Shown in pieces: positions 3,268-59,464 of a DNA stretch of 64,000 nt. Position numbers and translations under genes: made by a program. How positions within the stretch are numbered: the first letter of the stretch is position 1; the number at the start of each line of letters is the position of its first letter. The stretch covers positions 143,105 to 207,104 of the forward strand of contig QBZD01000001.1 in NCBI GenBank assembly GCA_003282485.1, in the 5' to 3' direction. The notes under the pieces were generated by a model. It saw only the letters and a list, made by a program, of their open reading frames with translations. It was not told where the DNA came from and ran no database searches. Source of the DNA: Pelagibacteraceae bacterium AG-333-C14 (GTDB lineage Bacteria; Pseudomonadota; Alphaproteobacteria; Pelagibacterales; AG-422-B15).

Positions 3268-4245
3268 TTAACTTAAAGTTTCAATTAATTTAGTTTGTTC
3301 AATGATTTGCTCAGCCTGTCTAATGGATGCAGCATCTATAAGTCTACCATTGAGAGTGGCTGCCCCTGCCCCAGACTCTTGAGCTTCTCTCATTGCCTTA
3401 ATAATATCTTTGGCTTTTTGGACTTCGCTGTCAGGTAACGTAAAGACTTCATTGGCTAAGTCTACTTGACTAGGGTGAATCGCCCATTTGCCCTCACATC
3501 CGAGTATTGCAGTTCTTCTTGCATGCGATTTAAATCCATCTGGATCTGAAAAATCACCGAAAGGTCCATCAATAATTCTCATGCCGTGAGCCCTGCCAAT
3601 AGTTGTCATTTTAGAAATAGGATAGTGCCACATGTCATTCCAGTGAATATTTCTCTCTCCATTAATTTCGTCTGTTAAAATGGAATAATCTGAATTCGAC
3701 CCACCTATATTAGTAGTCCTCATTCTGACTGATGCAGCATAGTCAGCATAACCAAAATGAAGAGACTCAATTCTTTTGCTGCCAGTTAAAATACTATCTA
3801 AGTTGGTGATGCCCATTGAAATTTCAATAATTAATTCAAAACCAATTTTTTTGCTTCTATTTATTTTGTCTTCTATTTGAGTAACCATCATGTCAATGGC
3901 ATAGACATCAGCCGCAACTCCAACTTTTGGTATCATTATCAAGTCAAGTCGTTCACCACCTTGCTCCATTAAATCAACTACATCACGGTAGCAATAATGA
4001 GTATCGAGGCCATTTATTCTGACAGAAATAGTTTTTTTTCCAAAATCAAGTTCATTTAGAGCTTTAATAACATTTTCTTTTGCTTGCTCTTTGTCTTGTG
4101 GAGCCACCGCGTCCTCTAAATCTAAACAAATAATGTCAGCATTACTCTTGCATGCTTTATCAAATAATTCGGGTTTAGAGCCTGGGACAAATAACTGGGA
4201 ACGATTTAGTCTCGTTGGTTTTGTTGGTACGGATGTGAAACTCAT
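3268..4245 (-). CDS. mcl: L-malyl-CoA/beta-methylmalyl-CoA lyase (CitE/HpcH family)
   Basis: RSQLFVPGSKPELFDKA, CLDLEDAVAP, GKWAIHPSQVDLANEVF motifs; long Mcl1-like protein rather than short CitE. Confidence 0.85.
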   Translation of the reverse strand: MSFTSVPTKPTRLNRSQLFVPGSKPELFDKACKSNADIICLDLEDAVAPQDKEQAKENVIKALNELDFGKKTISVRINGLDTHYCYRDVVDLMEQGGERLDLIMIPKVGVAADVYAIDMMVTQIEDKINRSKKIGFELIIEISMGITNLDSILTGSKRIESLHFGYADYAASVRMRTTNIGGSNSDYSILTDEINGERNIHWNDMWHYPISKMTTIGRAHGMRIIDGPFGDFSDPDGFKSHARRTAILGCEGKWAIHPSQVDLANEVFTLPDSEVQKAKDIIKAMREAQESGAGAATLNGRLIDAASIRQAEQIIEQTKLIETLS

Positions 4246-14840: not shown

Positions 14841-16997
14841 TTAATTATGTTTGTGAATTTTATCTGATATCAAATCAATGACCTTTTCTGCTGATTCAAT
14901 AATATTTGAACCTGGACCAAAGATAGCTGAAATATTATTTTCATATAAAAAATCGTAGTCTTGCTCAGGTATAACTCCGCCAACAAAAACAATTATTTTT
15001 GACTTGGAATCTATTTCTTTAAGGCTTTTCATGAGCTCTGGTACAAGTGTTTTGTGACCTGCCGCAAGTGTTGAGACACCTATTGCGTGCACATCATTCT
15101 CGATTGCATCTTTTGCTACATCTTTTGGAGACTGAAATAAAGGACCCATATCAACATCGAATCCCATATCTGCAAATGACGTAGCAACAATCTTTGCTCC
15201 TCTATCATGACCATCTTGACCCATCTTAACTACCAAAACTCTAGGTCTTCGACCATTTTCCACCTCAAAAATATTTACTTTTTTTGTTACATTCATAAAA
15301 TCCTCATCACCCTCAAAATGTTTTCCATATACCCCTGAGACACTTAAAGATGTTGCAAAATGTCTTCCGTATACTTGCTCTAACGCTTTTGAAACTTCCC
15401 CAACTGTTGCTCTATTTTTTATAGCATCAATTGAACATGCTAACAAATTACTGTCCTCTTTGGCTGCAGTCACTAATTTAGCTAGAGACTCATCAACAGC
15501 CTTTTGATCCCTAGAGGCTTTTATATCATTTATTTTTTTTATTTGATCATCTCTCACTCTATTATTATCAATTACCCTAACATCTACCTTTGGCTCTTTG
15601 GGGTTTTTAAACTTATTTACTCCAACAACAACTCTTGACCCACTATCTACTTTTGCTTGTTTTTTAGTGGCCGACTCCTCAATTTTTAATTTTGGCACAC
15701 CCGCTTTTACAGCTTTTGTCATCCCTCCAAGGGATTCTATCTCTTCTATAATATCCCAAGCTTTTTTTGATAATTCGTCAGTAAGACTTTCTATAAAATA
15801 TGATCCTGCTAATGGATCTACAGTATTCGTTACGCCAGTTTCATTTTGAAGAATAAGCTGGGTATTTCTAGCTATTCGAGCAGATTCATCAGTAGGAAGA
15901 GCAATTGCTTCATCAAATGAATTGGTGTGTAAACTCTGAGTTCCGCCTAGTATAGCGGACAGTGCCTCATAAGATGTCCTAATGATATTATTATATGGAT
16001 CCTTTTCAGTAAGTGATACTCCAGAAGTCTGACAGTGTGTTCTGAGTATCAAGGACTTTTCATTTTTTGCTCCAAAATCTTTCATTATTTTATACCATAA
16101 TGTTCTAGCTGCTCTGAGTTTTGCAATCTCCATGAAGAAATCAGTTCCAATAGCAAAAAAGAATGAAAGACGTGGAGCGAAGTCATCAATATCTAGCCCT
16201 TTTGAGAGAGCTGCTCTTACATATTCCATGCCGTCAGCAAGTGTGTAGGCAAGTTCAAGCACATTATCTGCACCTGCTTCTTGCATATGATAGCCAGAGA
16301 TTGAAATTGAATTAAACTTTGGCATTTCCTTAGATGTAAATTCAATTATGTCAGCAACGATTTTCATAGATGGATCAGGAGGATAAATGTATGTATTTCT
16401 AACCATGAATTCTTTTAAAATGTCATTTTGTATAGTTCCAGATAGTAGATTTTTATTAACATTTTGCTCTTCCCCGGCAACAATGAATGAGGATAAGACA
16501 GGAAGCACTGCCCCATTCATCGTCATTGATACAGACATCTGATCAAGTGGAATGTCATTGAATAGAATTTTCATGTCTTCAACAGTATCAATGGCAACAC
16601 CGGCCTTGCCAACATCTCCCATTACTAAATCATCATCAGAGTCATAACCTCTATGAGTCGGCAGATCAAAAGCAACTGAGAGACCTTTTTGACCAGATTT
16701 TAAATTTTTCTTATAAAAATCATTTGACTCCTCTGCTGTAGAAAACCCAGCATACTGCCTTATCGTCCAAGGTCTATTTGTATACATTGAAGCTTTTGGG
16801 CCCCTTGTATATGGCAACTGACCAGGGAGTGAGTCATTATCTACAAAAGAAAGATTCTCAATGTCAGCTTTTGTATAAACTGGCTTTATTTCAATACCTT
16901 CATCTGTTTCAGAAGACGCTTCGTTGAGATCAATCTTTGTTTCTCGTTCAAAGCTTTTCTGCCACTTTGTATAATTATCACTATTTTTTGTTTTCAT
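14841..16997 (-). CDS. mcm: Methylmalonyl-CoA mutase, single chain with B12-binding domain
   Basis: [60 protein letters not shown] (DxHxxG B12 motif). Confidence 0.96.
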
Positions 16998-17965: not shown

Positions 17966-18787
17966 ATGAAAAAAAATAAGAAATCCATAAAGAAGAAAAA
18001 GAAAATTGTTAAAAAAGTTCTTAAGAAAAAGAAAGCTATTAAAAAAGTTCTTAAGAAAAAGAGAGTAGTAAAAAAAACTATAAAAAAAAAGAAGGTTGCC
18101 TCAAAAAAAAAGGTAGAAGCAAAAAAAACTGTAAAAAAGTTTGTAGCTCCAAAAATGCCTCAACAATCTAATAAAAAAGTTAATAATAGAATAATTAATC
18201 CATCCCACTATCAAGCAAAAAAAGTAAAAAAATTTTTAGAAATAAAAACAATCAAAGAAAAAAAAGTTAAAAAAATATTTGAGACTAAAGACCATGTTGT
18301 TTATCCAACTCATGGTGTTGGGCAAGTTATCGATATAGAAAAAAGAGAGGTAGTTGGTCAAAAGCTTGAAATGTACGTCATTGAATTTGTAAAGGATAAA
18401 TTAATACTGAGAGTGCCAGTTGATAAAGCAAAGAAACTCAGTTTAAGAAAAGTTTCAAAGCCATCAAAAATCCAAAATGTTTTGAAAATTCTCTCTCAGA
18501 AAGCCAAAATTAAAAGAACTATGTGGAGTCGACGCGCGCAGGAATATGATTTAAAAATTAACTCTGGGGAAATTGAGCAAATTGCTGAAGTAGTTAGAGA
18601 TTTAAATAGGGCAAACAACCAAATAGAGCAATCTTATAGTGAACGCCAACTGTTTGAATTATCTTACGATCGTTTTTTACGCGAAGTTATTGCAAGCCTT
18701 AAAATCACTGAAGAAAATGCAATCAAAAAAATAGACAAAATTCTTGGTAGAGACAAATTAAAAAACGCCCCTAGTCTATTAAACTAA
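17966..18787 (+). CDS. carD: CarD-family transcriptional regulator with long Lys-rich N-terminal tail
   Basis: CarD domain DHVVYPTHGVGQVIDIEKREVVGQKLEMYVIEF; first ~100 residues dominated by K/V/I-rich repeats. Confidence 0.9.
   Translation: MKKNKKSIKKKKKIVKKVLKKKKAIKKVLKKKRVVKKTIKKKKVASKKKVEAKKTVKKFVAPKMPQQSNKKVNNRIINPSHYQAKKVKKFLEIKTIKEKKVKKIFETKDHVVYPTHGVGQVIDIEKREVVGQKLEMYVIEFVKDKLILRVPVDKAKKLSLRKVSKPSKIQNVLKILSQKAKIKRTMWSRRAQEYDLKINSGEIEQIAEVVRDLNRANNQIEQSYSERQLFELSYDRFLREVIASLKITEENAIKKIDKILGRDKLKNAPSLLN
18008..18097 (+). repeat. Three tandem 30-bp units inside carD encoding VKKVLKKKKA / IKKVLKKKRV / VKKTIKKKKV
   Basis: Units at 18008-18037, 18038-18067 and 18068-18097; first two share aaaaaagttcttaagaaaaaga, the third is diverged. 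Confidence 0.8.
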
Positions 18788-18792
18788 GGGCG
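18766..18792. terminator. Hairpin CGCCCcTAGT-loop-ACTAaGGGCG overlapping the 3' end of carD; on the minus strand it is followed by a T-run
   Basis: 9 paired positions with one mismatch, 7-nt loop; A-run at 18759-18765 reads as T on the minus strand. Confidence 0.55.
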
Positions 18793-18801
18793 CAAAAAAA
18801 A

Positions 18802-18821
18802 AGCATTGATTAATCAATGCT
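18802..18821. terminator. Perfect 20-nt palindrome AGCATTGATTAATCAATGCT, likely (bi)directional terminator between convergent genes
   Basis: A9 tract on its left (T9 on minus strand); pyrimidine-rich TATCTTTTCTTTTTTT on its right. Confidence 0.7.
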
Positions 18822-18823
18822 AT

Positions 18824-18946
18824 TTATCTTTTCTTTTTTTTCTTTTTAGCTGGCTTCCTTTTAGCGGCTTTTTTCTTCTTTTTAGGAGCTGCTTTTTTCT
18901 TAGCTTTTTTCTTTGCCTTCGCAAAGATTACTTTAAGTTCCTCCAT
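18824..18946 (-). CDS. Small Lys/Ala/Pro-rich histone-H1-like basic protein, 40 aa (below the cutoff of the supplied ORF track)
   Basis: Manual translation MEELKVIFAKAKKKAKKKAAPKKKKKAAKRKPAKKKKKKR*; minus-strand GGGGGGAGATAATT-ATG gives a strong Shine-Dalgarno. Confidence 0.75.
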   Translation of the reverse strand: MEELKVIFAKAKKKAKKKAAPKKKKKAAKRKPAKKKKKKR

Positions 18947-19237
18947 AATTATCTCCCCCCATTTGGGTTTAGTTAGAGGTTAATTAATGAATCAAAAGTT
19001 TGATTCGTTATGTTCAATGATTAAACTTTTATTGAAAACTGTCAATTTCTCAATCTTTTCAAAGATTAACAGTAAAAATGTTAGAAAATTAAATTTATTT
19101 TAAATTATTAGTTTATTTATTTAAATACTTATACTCATTGAATTTTTTTTAATAAAAAAAACTTATTCTTTAAAATTTATAATTTTAAAACAAAAAAAGA
19201 AAAAAAAATTTGTTATAAGTTTATTTCTGATTAACGT

Positions 19238-34323: not shown

Positions 34324-34977
34324 TTAATTTGAAAATTTTTCAGTTATGAAGTCTATGGCAATTGAAAGTCCGTCTTGGGCAATTGAATGTGGAGTATTTG
34401 GTGAAATGTGGGCTTTTACATCTAAACCAAGCCCATTTAATTTTTTTTCAGCTTCAATTGTATCTTGGTAAGGCACCATTGGGTCAGCGTCGCCATGTAT
34501 GAGATAAATGGGAGGCTTAGACTTTAACTCTTTATCCAACAATTCTGGTGCAATTAATCTACCTGAAAATCCTACAATTGCCCTTATTGGCTTTGGTCTC
34601 CTTAGACCAACGTGAAGGCTCATCATAGTTCCCTGACTAAAGCCAACAAGGGCTAAATCTTGATCAGTTAGATCGTAATGCTCAAGTTGCTCATCAATAA
34701 ACTTATTAAGTGTATCGGCAGCGGTTAAAACACCTTTCCAAATTGTAGCAGGATCTCCCGATTGAAAATCAAACCACTGATAACCCATAGGATTCATGCC
34801 GCAATTCTCTGGTGCATTAGGAGATAAGAAAACTGCATCTGGGAGCGTTGGTTGAAAATAATTAGCTAAGCTAATTAAATCATTTCCATCTGCACCATAT
34901 CCATGACAAAAGATCACAATTTTTTTTGGGTTCTGTGAGTTAGCTGCTTCAATAACAGGGCCATTAAGAATTGACAT
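34324..34977 (-). CDS. Phospholipase/carboxylesterase (alpha/beta hydrolase)
   Basis: FCHGYGADGNDLISLANYF; ALVGFSQGTMMSLHVGLRR; IHGDADPMVPY. Confidence 0.9.
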   Translation of the reverse strand: MSILNGPVIEAANSQNPKKIVIFCHGYGADGNDLISLANYFQPTLPDAVFLSPNAPENCGMNPMGYQWFDFQSGDPATIWKGVLTAADTLNKFIDEQLEHYDLTDQDLALVGFSQGTMMSLHVGLRRPKPIRAIVGFSGRLIAPELLDKELKSKPPIYLIHGDADPMVPYQDTIEAEKKLNGLGLDVKAHISPNTPHSIAQDGLSIAIDFITEKFSN

Positions 34978-36932
34978 TAGGAAACTCTTTTCTCAACAAT
35001 TCCGACAATATCACTCATAATATCTTTGAGCTGATAGTTTTTTGGTGTGTATACAGCTTCAACTCCATTCTTGATTAATAGCTTTTCATCTTCGGTCGGG
35101 ATGATCCCTCCAACAATTACTGGTATGTCATCTATTTTATTTTTTTTCATTTCATTCATAATTTCTCCCACAAGTTGGACATGTGACCCGGAAAGAATAG
35201 ATAGACCGATAATATGAACGTCTTCTTCAACTGATGATTTAACTATTTGTTCAGGCGTGAGCCTTATTCCTTCATATAAAACATCCATACCACAATCACT
35301 GGCACTCACAGCTATTTGTTCAGCGCCACTCGAGTGACCATCAAGGCCTGGCTTGCCAACGAGGAACTTAATGCGTCTGCCGATTTTATCTGATATGTCC
35401 TCAACTCTTTTTCTAATTGCACTGTAATCGTCATTGTTGGTTGGCTGTATATTGCTTATACCTGTTGGTGCTTTAAACTCTCCAAAAACATCTCTTAATA
35501 CCGCAGACCATTCACCTGTTGTAACTCCAGCTTTGGCAGCAGCTATGGATGGTTCCATCATATTGCTTCCATTATTTGCCGCATCAATCAGATCTTTTAA
35601 TGCTTTATCTGCGGCCCCCTGGTCTCTATTTTTTCGCCATTGTTGAATAGCATTCACTTGTTCACTTTCAATTTTGGGGTCTATTGTCTCTATTCCTCCA
35701 TCAGAAGAAGTCAAAGGTGACTCTTCCGTTTCTATAAAATCATTAACACCAACAACAATTTGTTCTTTGCTATTTATTTTTCTCAATCTTTCTTTTTGTG
35801 AATTAACAAGTTCTTGTTTCAAATAACCACTTTCAACTGCTTTAACAGCACCTCCTATCGACAATATATGATTAAATTCTTCATATGCCGCTTCCTCAAG
35901 TGCTTTAACTTTTTCATCTACAACTTTTGAGCCATTAAATATATCTTCAAAATGCAGCAAGTCTGTTTCAAAGGCTACAATTTGCTGAAGCCTCAAAGAC
36001 CACTGTTGATCCCATGGCCTTGGCAAACCCATTGCTTCATTCCATGCTGGCAATTGAACAGCCCTAGCTCTTGCATCTTTTGACAGAACAACGCCAAGCA
36101 TTTCGATCAAAATTCTATAAACATTATTTTCTGGTTGCTGCTCGGTTAATCCGAGACTATTAACTTGCATACCGTATCTGAATCTTCTGTTTTTTGCGTC
36201 TTTAACTTTATATCGTTCCTTAGTAATTCGATCCCATAAAGAAACAAAAGCCCTCATCTTACACATTTCAGTAATAAACTTAATTCCAGAGTTAACAAAA
36301 AAACTTATCCTACCGACAACATTCTCAAATTCTTCATCGGTTAATGTTTTAGAAGACTGCACTTTATCAAGATATGCAACTGCAATTGAAAGTCCAAAAG
36401 CAAGCTCCTGCTCAGGTGTTGCTCCTACTTCAACTAGATGATAGGGACAAACGTTAATTGGATTCCAGTTAGGCATTTCTTTAAATGTAAAAGTAATGAC
36501 ATCAGAAATAATTCTTAAACTAGGGTCTGGAGGAAGGATATAAGTACCTCTCGATAAATATTCTTTTAGTACATCATTTTGAGTTGTGCCCCTAAGCTTG
36601 CTTCTTTCAATGCCTTGCTCATCAGCTACCGCTATATACAAACTAAGTAACCATGCAGCAGTCGCATTGATAGTCATTGAAGTGTTCATCTTATCTAAAG
36701 GGATTTGATTAAACAAAGACCTCATATCCCCAATGTGTGAAATTGGAACTCCTACCTTGCCTACTTCGCCTTTTGATAATATATGATCGCTATCATAGCC
36801 AGTTTGTGTTGGCAGATCAAAAGCTACAGATATGCCAGTTTGACCCTTTGAAAGGTTCTTCAGATATAGTTCATTTGACTTTTTGGCAGACGAATGTCCT
36901 GCATAAGTTCGTATAAGCCAAGGTTTATCCAT
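34977..36932 (-). CDS. ecm: Ethylmalonyl-CoA mutase
   Basis: Mutase MDKPWLIRTYAGHSSAKKSNELYLKNLSKGQTG plus B12 motif GKPGLDGHSSGAEQIAVSASDCGMDVLY; divergent from ccr. Confidence 0.93.
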   Translation of the reverse strand: MDKPWLIRTYAGHSSAKKSNELYLKNLSKGQTGISVAFDLPTQTGYDSDHILSKGEVGKVGVPISHIGDMRSLFNQIPLDKMNTSMTINATAAWLLSLYIAVADEQGIERSKLRGTTQNDVLKEYLSRGTYILPPDPSLRIISDVITFTFKEMPNWNPINVCPYHLVEVGATPEQELAFGLSIAVAYLDKVQSSKTLTDEEFENVVGRISFFVNSGIKFITEMCKMRAFVSLWDRITKERYKVKDAKNRRFRYGMQVNSLGLTEQQPENNVYRILIEMLGVVLSKDARARAVQLPAWNEAMGLPRPWDQQWSLRLQQIVAFETDLLHFEDIFNGSKVVDEKVKALEEAAYEEFNHILSIGGAVKAVESGYLKQELVNSQKERLRKINSKEQIVVGVNDFIETEESPLTSSDGGIETIDPKIESEQVNAIQQWRKNRDQGAADKALKDLIDAANNGSNMMEPSIAAAKAGVTTGEWSAVLRDVFGEFKAPTGISNIQPTNNDDYSAIRKRVEDISDKIGRRIKFLVGKPGLDGHSSGAEQIAVSASDCGMDVLYEGIRLTPEQIVKSSVEEDVHIIGLSILSGSHVQLVGEIMNEMKKNKIDDIPVIVGGIIPTEDEKLLIKNGVEAVYTPKNYQLKDIMSDIVGIVEKRVS

Positions 36933-37066: not shown

Positions 37067-38302
37067 ATGACTACTGAAGAAAAAGATATTTATGCAATCG
37101 GTGAGGTTCCGCCTCTTGGATACATCCCAAAAAAAATGCACGCATGGGTTATTAGAAGAGACCGTCATGGCAATCCCATGAAGTCATTTCAGGAAGAAGA
37201 ATTTGATATACCTGAAGTTGGATCGAACGATGTATTAATTTTCGTTATGGCAGCTGGTGTTAATTATAATGGAGTTTGGGCAGGTTTAGGTAAACCTGTA
37301 TCTACTTTAGACATGACTAAAAAAGATTATCACATTGCAGGTTCAGATTGTTCAGGAATAGTTTGGAAAGTTGGATCTGGAGTCAAAAAGTGGAAAGTAG
37401 GAGATGAAGTAATTATTCATGGAATGCAATGGGATCACGAAGATGCTGAAGTTAACGGTGGTGAACCAATGGTTTCAAAAACAAACAAAGTGTTTGGTTA
37501 CGAAACGGCCGACGGGACTTTTGCACAATTTACATCTGTTCAAGCTCATCAGGTCTTACGTAAACCACCAAACCTGTCTTGGGAAGAAAGTGGTTGTTAC
37601 ATGTTAACGCTTGCTACAGCGTATAGAATGCTTTTTGGTCATGCGCCTAACGAATTAAAACCTGGAGAGTTTGTTTTAATATGGGGGGCGTCAGGTGGTC
37701 TTGGAAGTATGGCGGTTCAACTTGCAAAAATTGTTGGAGCAAAACCTATTGGTATTATCTCGGACAACTCAAAAATTGATTATGTAAAAAGTCTTGGAGC
37801 TGTGGGAGTACTAAATAGAAAAGACTTTAATTGTTGGGGTGAACACCCAGATATTGATGATGCTGAAACATATGGAAATTATATGAAAGAAGTAAGAAAA
37901 TTTGGAAAGGCTCTATGGGAGTTCACAGGAAAAGGCAACAATGTGGACATGGTCTTTGAGCACCCAGGAGAAACAACAGTTCCTGTCTCTTGCTTTGTAG
38001 TAAAACCCGGTGGAATGGTTGTTATTTGTGCTGGTACAACTGGCTACAATTTAACTTTAGATGCAAGATATCTATGGATGCAAAGTAAAAGGCTTCAGGG
38101 CTCACACTTTGGAAACTCAAAACAAGCTAACGCAGCAAATGAACTTGTTATTGATGGAACTTTAGATCCTTGTATGTCTGAGTTATTTGCATGGAAAAAT
38201 ATTCCAGATGCGCATGAGAAAATGCTAAATAATGAACATAAAGGTGGCAATATGTCTGTTCTCGTTGGTGCGGCAAATGAAGGGCAAAAATCTCTTAACT
38301 AA
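37067..38302 (+). CDS. ccr: Crotonyl-CoA carboxylase/reductase
   Basis: YIPKKMHAWVIRRDRHGNPMKSFQEE; GSDCSGIVWKVGSGVKKWKVGDEVIIH; LIWGASGGLGSMAVQLAKIVGA. Confidence 0.96.
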   Translation: MTTEEKDIYAIGEVPPLGYIPKKMHAWVIRRDRHGNPMKSFQEEEFDIPEVGSNDVLIFVMAAGVNYNGVWAGLGKPVSTLDMTKKDYHIAGSDCSGIVWKVGSGVKKWKVGDEVIIHGMQWDHEDAEVNGGEPMVSKTNKVFGYETADGTFAQFTSVQAHQVLRKPPNLSWEESGCYMLTLATAYRMLFGHAPNELKPGEFVLIWGASGGLGSMAVQLAKIVGAKPIGIISDNSKIDYVKSLGAVGVLNRKDFNCWGEHPDIDDAETYGNYMKEVRKFGKALWEFTGKGNNVDMVFEHPGETTVPVSCFVVKPGGMVVICAGTTGYNLTLDARYLWMQSKRLQGSHFGNSKQANAANELVIDGTLDPCMSELFAWKNIPDAHEKMLNNEHKGGNMSVLVGAANEGQKSLN

Positions 38303-59029: not shown

Positions 59030-59464
59030 ATGTTTGCAATTATCTCAACTGGTGGGAAACAATATAAAGTAAGCCAGGACACCATTCTAACAGTTAACAA
59101 GCTTGAAGGTAAAGACGGTGACAAAATAACAATAGATGACGTTTTGTTTGCTTGTGACGGCGACAAGTTTTCTATTGGCTCTCCTCAAATTGACGGAGCC
59201 AAAATTAATGCTGAGATAGTAAAGCAAGACCGAGATAGAAAAATATTGGTTTTTAAGAAGAAGAGAAGAAAAAATTATAGAAGACTTAATGGACATAGGC
59301 AGGATATTACTTTCTTAAAAGTTAATTCATTAGATATTCCTGGGTTTGCTGCAGAAAAAGCAGCCAAGAAAGTTTCTGCAAAAGAGGAAACTAAAAGCGA
59401 AGACGTTGCTGTGAAAAAAAAGGCAGTAGCAAAGAAAAAGACAACAAAGAAAAAGGGTGAATAA
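59030..59464 (+). CDS. rplU: 50S ribosomal protein L21 with Lys/Ala-rich C-terminal tail
   Basis: [50 protein letters not shown]. Confidence 0.97.

Follow-up and report, generated by a model that had tools for sequence, protein, structure and literature searches.

A Lys-rich microprotein gene convergent with carD in Pelagibacterales as a candidate H1-tail-like nucleic acid-binding protein

The question raised by this locus is whether a very short, Lys- and Ala-rich open reading frame that converges on carD encodes a protein and, if it does, what so small a polycation might do beside a CarD that itself carries a Lys-rich extension. The locus lies in a 64-kb stretch of DNA, referred to here as the window, from a SAR11 (Pelagibacterales) genome of the GTDB genus AG-422-B15. 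Translation of 18824-18946(-) gives MEELKVIFAKAKKKAKKKAAPKKKKKAAKRKPAKKKKKKR*, a 40-aa product identical to the Lys/Ala-rich minus-strand protein of the original prediction, and this is the sole ATG ORF of at least 20 aa in the window with at least 50% K+R; 40 Markov-1 simulated windows of matched composition contained no ORF of at least 30 aa with such K+R content. The features of the locus are as follows.

17966..18787 (+): carD, CdnL type (RID and CarD_C domains), extended at the N terminus by a Lys-rich segment; the convergent neighbor
18765..18793 (-): terminator-like hairpin 2 (GCGCCC..GGGGCG) and T run, 3' of the small gene's stop
18802..18821 (-): terminator-like hairpin 1 and T run, 3' of the small gene's stop
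18824..18946 (-): Lys/Ala/Arg-rich small protein gene, 40 codons here and typically 76-85 in the genus
18953..18960 (-): Shine-Dalgarno GGGGGGAG, 6 nt 5' of the ATG
18989..19007 (-): 5' leader stem-loop CGAATCAAACTTTTGATTC, kept across Pelagibacterales
19017..19045 (-): sigma70-like promoter TTGACA-17-AATCAT, with the -35 hexamer kept in relatives

The strong Shine-Dalgarno and the terminator just past the stop that had been predicted are both in place, the latter as two hairpins with T runs. There is also a possible short hairpin, CCC-AAAT-GGG at ~18953-18966(-), that overlaps the Shine-Dalgarno, and its L068 version is CGC-AAAT-GCG, a compensatory change.

Elsewhere in the window, 37067-38302(+) encodes a crotonyl-CoA carboxylase/reductase (TIGR01751, over cut-off), and the remaining loci of a putative ethylmalonyl-CoA set, together with the normal methylmalonyl-CoA mutase, are at 34977-36932(-), 3268-4245(-), and 14841-16997(-). 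A second protein resembling methylmalonyl-CoA mutase scores under the equivalog cut-off and is possibly an ethylmalonyl-CoA mutase, and a CitE/malyl-CoA-lyase-like gene is also in the window. This gene content suggests an ethylmalonyl-CoA pathway in SAR11 genus AG-422-B15 alongside the normal mutase.

Distribution and coding capacity of the convergent ORF

A Lys/Arg-rich ORF of 21-99 aa is convergent with carD in 61 of 61 Pelagibacterales genomes, from two families and ten genera, a count that takes in only genomes whose contig runs on beyond carD (36 from the window's own family, f1, and 25 from the Pelagibacteraceae, f2). The 3' side of carD was inspected in both families, and each convergent ORF has its own Shine-Dalgarno; the ORF is kept in frame, so that reading-frame conservation and synteny with carD, which were proposed as checks on the original prediction, both came out in its favor. 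Apparent absences in G018, G035, G061, G074, and G017 were rejected as cases of gene loss, since carD is present in each and the contigs stop within or just after it. In other alphaproteobacterial families, a convergent Lys-rich small ORF was found at 0 of 60 carD loci, and when the 85-aa form was used as query in a class-wide sequence search (241 genomes), only the window's own gene was returned, although low complexity limits the sensitivity of that search, which missed the Pelagibacteraceae orthologs too. Because sequence search misses these orthologs, the orthology of the f1 and f2 genes is based on position and leader rather than on residue identity.

Selection on the codons was assessed with 30 distinct DNA versions of the small gene from f1 relatives. 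For codons 1-23, pN/pS comes to 0.087 in the ORF's own frame, compared with 1.63 and 1.88 when the DNA is read in either of the others, and third positions account for 14 of the 20 variable columns; this is the dN/dS-type comparison of orthologs that had been suggested, and the small gene's codons are under purifying selection. The contrast is weaker over the first 12 codons in f2 (0.44 in frame versus 0.84 and 0.95). The tail, pooled across f1 relatives, consists of 55.5% K, 10.2% R, 25.8% A, and 8.0% P, with no D or E in 1,932 codons, whereas the two out-of-frame readings of this purine-rich DNA contain 3.9% and 17.9% Glu, and one of them has 16% stops. The A/G-rich, low-complexity DNA and the structured leader and terminator would also suit a non-coding RNA, or a chance purine tract whose ORF is untranslated, but the in-frame purifying selection, the length changes that preserve the frame, the conserved start codon and Shine-Dalgarno, the absence of acidic residues, and the finding of no Rfam family above gathering score at the locus, tRNA excepted, make that explanation very improbable. 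Judged from these sequence comparisons, 18824-18946(-) is a real protein-coding gene.

The f1 proteins are 40-99 aa long and begin with MEELKVIFAKAKKKAKKKAAPKK or a close variant, and those of the window's genus are usually 76-85 aa, while those of f2 range from 21 to 50 aa (21-35 aa among the Pelagibacter-like genera), for example MAKRRKKAKKKAKKKAKKRRRRR. The repeat unit is ~17-20 aa, AAPKKKKKAAKRKPAKKK, corresponding to ~60 nt in the DNA, and the 40-aa form, which occurs in six genomes including that of the window, contains exactly one unit. In G059 and G032, the CarD core is identical to that of the window and the small protein is 79 or 80 aa, and the contigs of others in the group of the 40-aa form are broken at the small gene. 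These longer proteins in relatives with an identical CarD core, together with contigs ending at this spot, suggest the possibility that the 40-aa length is an assembly collapse of the 60-nt repeats, though a natural contraction fits too.

The leaders of the relatives that were compared contain TTGACA (in a few, TTGACT) followed by a stem-loop opening with (A)CGAATC, and the strong Shine-Dalgarno is likewise kept among Pelagibacterales leaders. This leader segment folds as a hairpin in 53 of 53 distinct sequences, with z scores of -1.7 to -7.0 against mononucleotide shuffles. Stem and loop lengths differ, as in CGAATCA-CTT-TGATTCG, CACTTAGAA..TTCTAAGTG, and CACATAATT..AATTATGTG, and some of the 3' arms pair via G-U. 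A strict form of the pattern is present in six of ten genomes, at one site each except for two in G068, the two G041 rows being one palindrome counted on both strands. A transcription factor operator was considered for this dyad and is not our first choice, since neither the spacing of the arms nor the length of the stem is constant, G-U pairs are tolerated, and the strict pattern mostly has a single site per genome. The variation in stem and loop and the G-U pairs are better fitted by an RNA hairpin than by a protein-binding dyad, and, lying near the predicted transcript start, the 5' stem-loop probably stabilizes the mRNA.

Relationship of the microprotein to CarD

The small gene does adjoin carD, as originally described, but the basic region of the window's CarD proves to be an N-terminal extension of ~104 aa rather than a C-terminal tail, and its composition is unlike that of the small protein (K with V/I/L/T/A in the extension, K/A/P(R) in the small protein). 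Every complete Pelagibacterales CarD carries a Lys-rich N-terminal extension, of 46-144 aa, and Lys/Ala-rich CarD extensions recur in several other alphaproteobacterial families (L111, L137, L143, L148, L152, and L167), in which no such small gene was seen next to carD. Ribosomal protein L21, at 59030-59464(+), has a Lys-rich C-terminal tail and is another example of a Lys-rich appendage in this genome. The proposal that the two basic modules share ancestry is unsupported, because their compositions differ and extensions occur elsewhere with no small gene nearby, and because low-complexity sequence cannot show homology.

A functional rather than ancestral connection would cast the microprotein as a CarD partner encoded apart from it, a free-standing basic module that joins CarD and RNA polymerase at promoters and complements the Lys-rich extension. 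Adjacency to carD is order-wide, all complete CarDs are extended, and the genera with the shortest extensions (46-62 aa) also have the shortest microproteins (21-24 aa), a relation of lengths that is confounded by phylogeny. There is precedent in Myxococcus, where basic disordered domains are exchangeable on CarD (PMC4374960); its HMGA-like or H1-like tails resemble the SAR11 case in associating a basic disordered module with a CarD-family protein, but the Myxococcus module is fused to CarD, whereas in SAR11 the microprotein has a separate convergent gene to itself, alongside a CarD that is already extended at its N terminus. Convergence means that the small gene and carD are not co-transcribed as one operon, and this, together with the A/P versus V/I/L compositions and the extended CarDs elsewhere that have no such gene nearby, leaves a CarD partner decidedly unlikely.

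A predicted H1-tail-like polycation

The proteins have a net charge of +17 to +53, and AlphaFold predicts a helix at residues 2-19 (pLDDT ~82-87) with low confidence for the remainder. In Pfam and NCBIfam, the 40-aa and 85-aa forms had no match save a non-significant one to a fungal PH domain, and these searches and that of the PDB gave no name or meaningful match for the small protein. The resemblance to H1-like tails that was first noted is borne out in a small, basic gene product with a low-complexity tail that is rich in K, A, and P and free of D and E, and H1-tail-like here denotes a kind of protein, not a family. Such a polycationic mini-protein probably coats DNA or RNA. We lean toward the reading that the Pelagibacterales gene encodes an H1-tail-like polycation that would bind nucleic acid electrostatically as a nucleoid accessory to HU, which we regard as somewhat probable. 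A highly expressed, weakly helical or disordered polycation would bind nucleic acids through their phosphate backbone, whatever the sequence, as the histone H1 tail does, and, as a small accessory much like a counter-ion, would neutralize the nucleoid and make it more compact. If function depends on charge and composition and not on the precise sequence, repeat number would be free to vary. HU is encoded by 2-3 copies in each of the genomes searched, so the microprotein would be one nucleoid protein among others, in an accessory role.

Some considerations count against a nucleoid role. A polycation would equally bind RNA, ribosomes, and acidic proteins, a dimerization domain of the Hc1 kind is absent, and 21-50 aa, as in the Pelagibacteraceae, is short for a DNA-compacting protein. 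The 21-35-aa length and Lys/Arg composition in many Pelagibacteraceae would be in keeping with a small ribosome- or RNA-associated basic protein, like bTHX or the basic ribosomal microproteins; the 5' stem-loop and strong Shine-Dalgarno resemble the leader of a highly expressed gene, and the sole match in a PDB sequence search was ribosomal L29, a non-significant one (E 0.52). Beyond charge, however, there is no fixed residue pattern, a defined ribosomal pocket could scarcely accommodate free repeat variation from 40 to 99 aa within one family, and ribosomal genes are not adjacent, so that we consider this alternative rather unlikely.

In its physical properties, the favored nucleoid accessory matches the H1-tail-like DNA-binding bacterial proteins Hc1/Hc2 (PMC2848022), AlgP (PMC9239181), and ScvA/Hq1 (PMC4766238). 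Chlamydia Hc2 (HctB) and Bordetella BpH1 share with the SAR11 protein Lys/Ala-rich repeats and a length that differs among strains as repeats are gained or lost in frame (PMC2848022), but Hc2 has 165-237 aa, with 36-aa elements that are pentamer-based, and BpH1 has 182-206 aa (PMC2848022), whereas the SAR11 protein is 21-99 aa, has the repeat AAPKKKKKAAKRKP, and shows order-wide carD synteny. The Hc2 profile (PF07382) was unmatched, the ~17-20-aa unit taking the place of pentamer-based repeats. Chlamydia Hc1 (HctA) has a similar Lys-rich DNA-binding-type tail, but it also has a conserved N-terminal dimerization domain (PMC2848022), in place of which the SAR11 protein has a non-repeat N-terminus of only about 12-18 residues with no Pfam match; neither the 40-aa nor the 85-aa form matched the Hc1 profile (PF07432). 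Pseudomonas AlgP (AlgR3) is similar in its K/P/A repeats and histone H1 C-terminal-tail composition and differs in its separate N-terminal domain and KPAA repeats (PMC9239181). The association of this KPAA-rich protein with polyphosphate granules (PMC9239181) and the similar composition raise the idea of polyphosphate binding in SAR11, yet ppk1 was found in two and ppk2 in none of ten Pelagibacterales genomes searched, among them the single-contig, 1,308,759-bp G041, while the microprotein is universal; with most of these genomes devoid of both genes, a polyphosphate role has a very slim chance of being correct. The SAR11 protein is too small for the AlgP domain and has a different repeat, and it does not fit the AlgP pattern.

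Coxiella ScvA comes from another clade, is ~30 aa long and tied to a developmental form, and differs in composition from the SAR11 protein. It too is a small basic DNA-binding protein (PMC4766238).

Significance for SAR11

We found no paper describing a Lys-rich small protein in SAR11, and the main text of the HTCC1062 iron- and sulfur-limitation papers is silent on histones, nucleoid proteins, and CarD; the ORF may already be recorded in the supplement of the HTCC1062 RNA-motif paper, among its conserved intergenic coding sequences (PMC2704228). At 21-40 codons, such genes are small enough to escape automatic annotation. SAR11 genomes are streamlined, and a gene that all of the genomes checked have retained is therefore likely to be useful to the cell; it also provides an additional genetic landmark for Pelagibacterales. 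More tentatively, and with somewhat less than even expectation, we suggest an order-wide SAR11 chromatin micro-protein, of 21-35 residues in many Pelagibacteraceae, that would serve as a polyamine-like encoded counter-ion functionally tied to the histone-like-extended CarD. SAR11 cells rank among the most abundant on Earth. Should the microprotein prove to bind DNA, few order-wide nucleoid proteins would be smaller, and it would offer a test of how small a protein can be and still package DNA.
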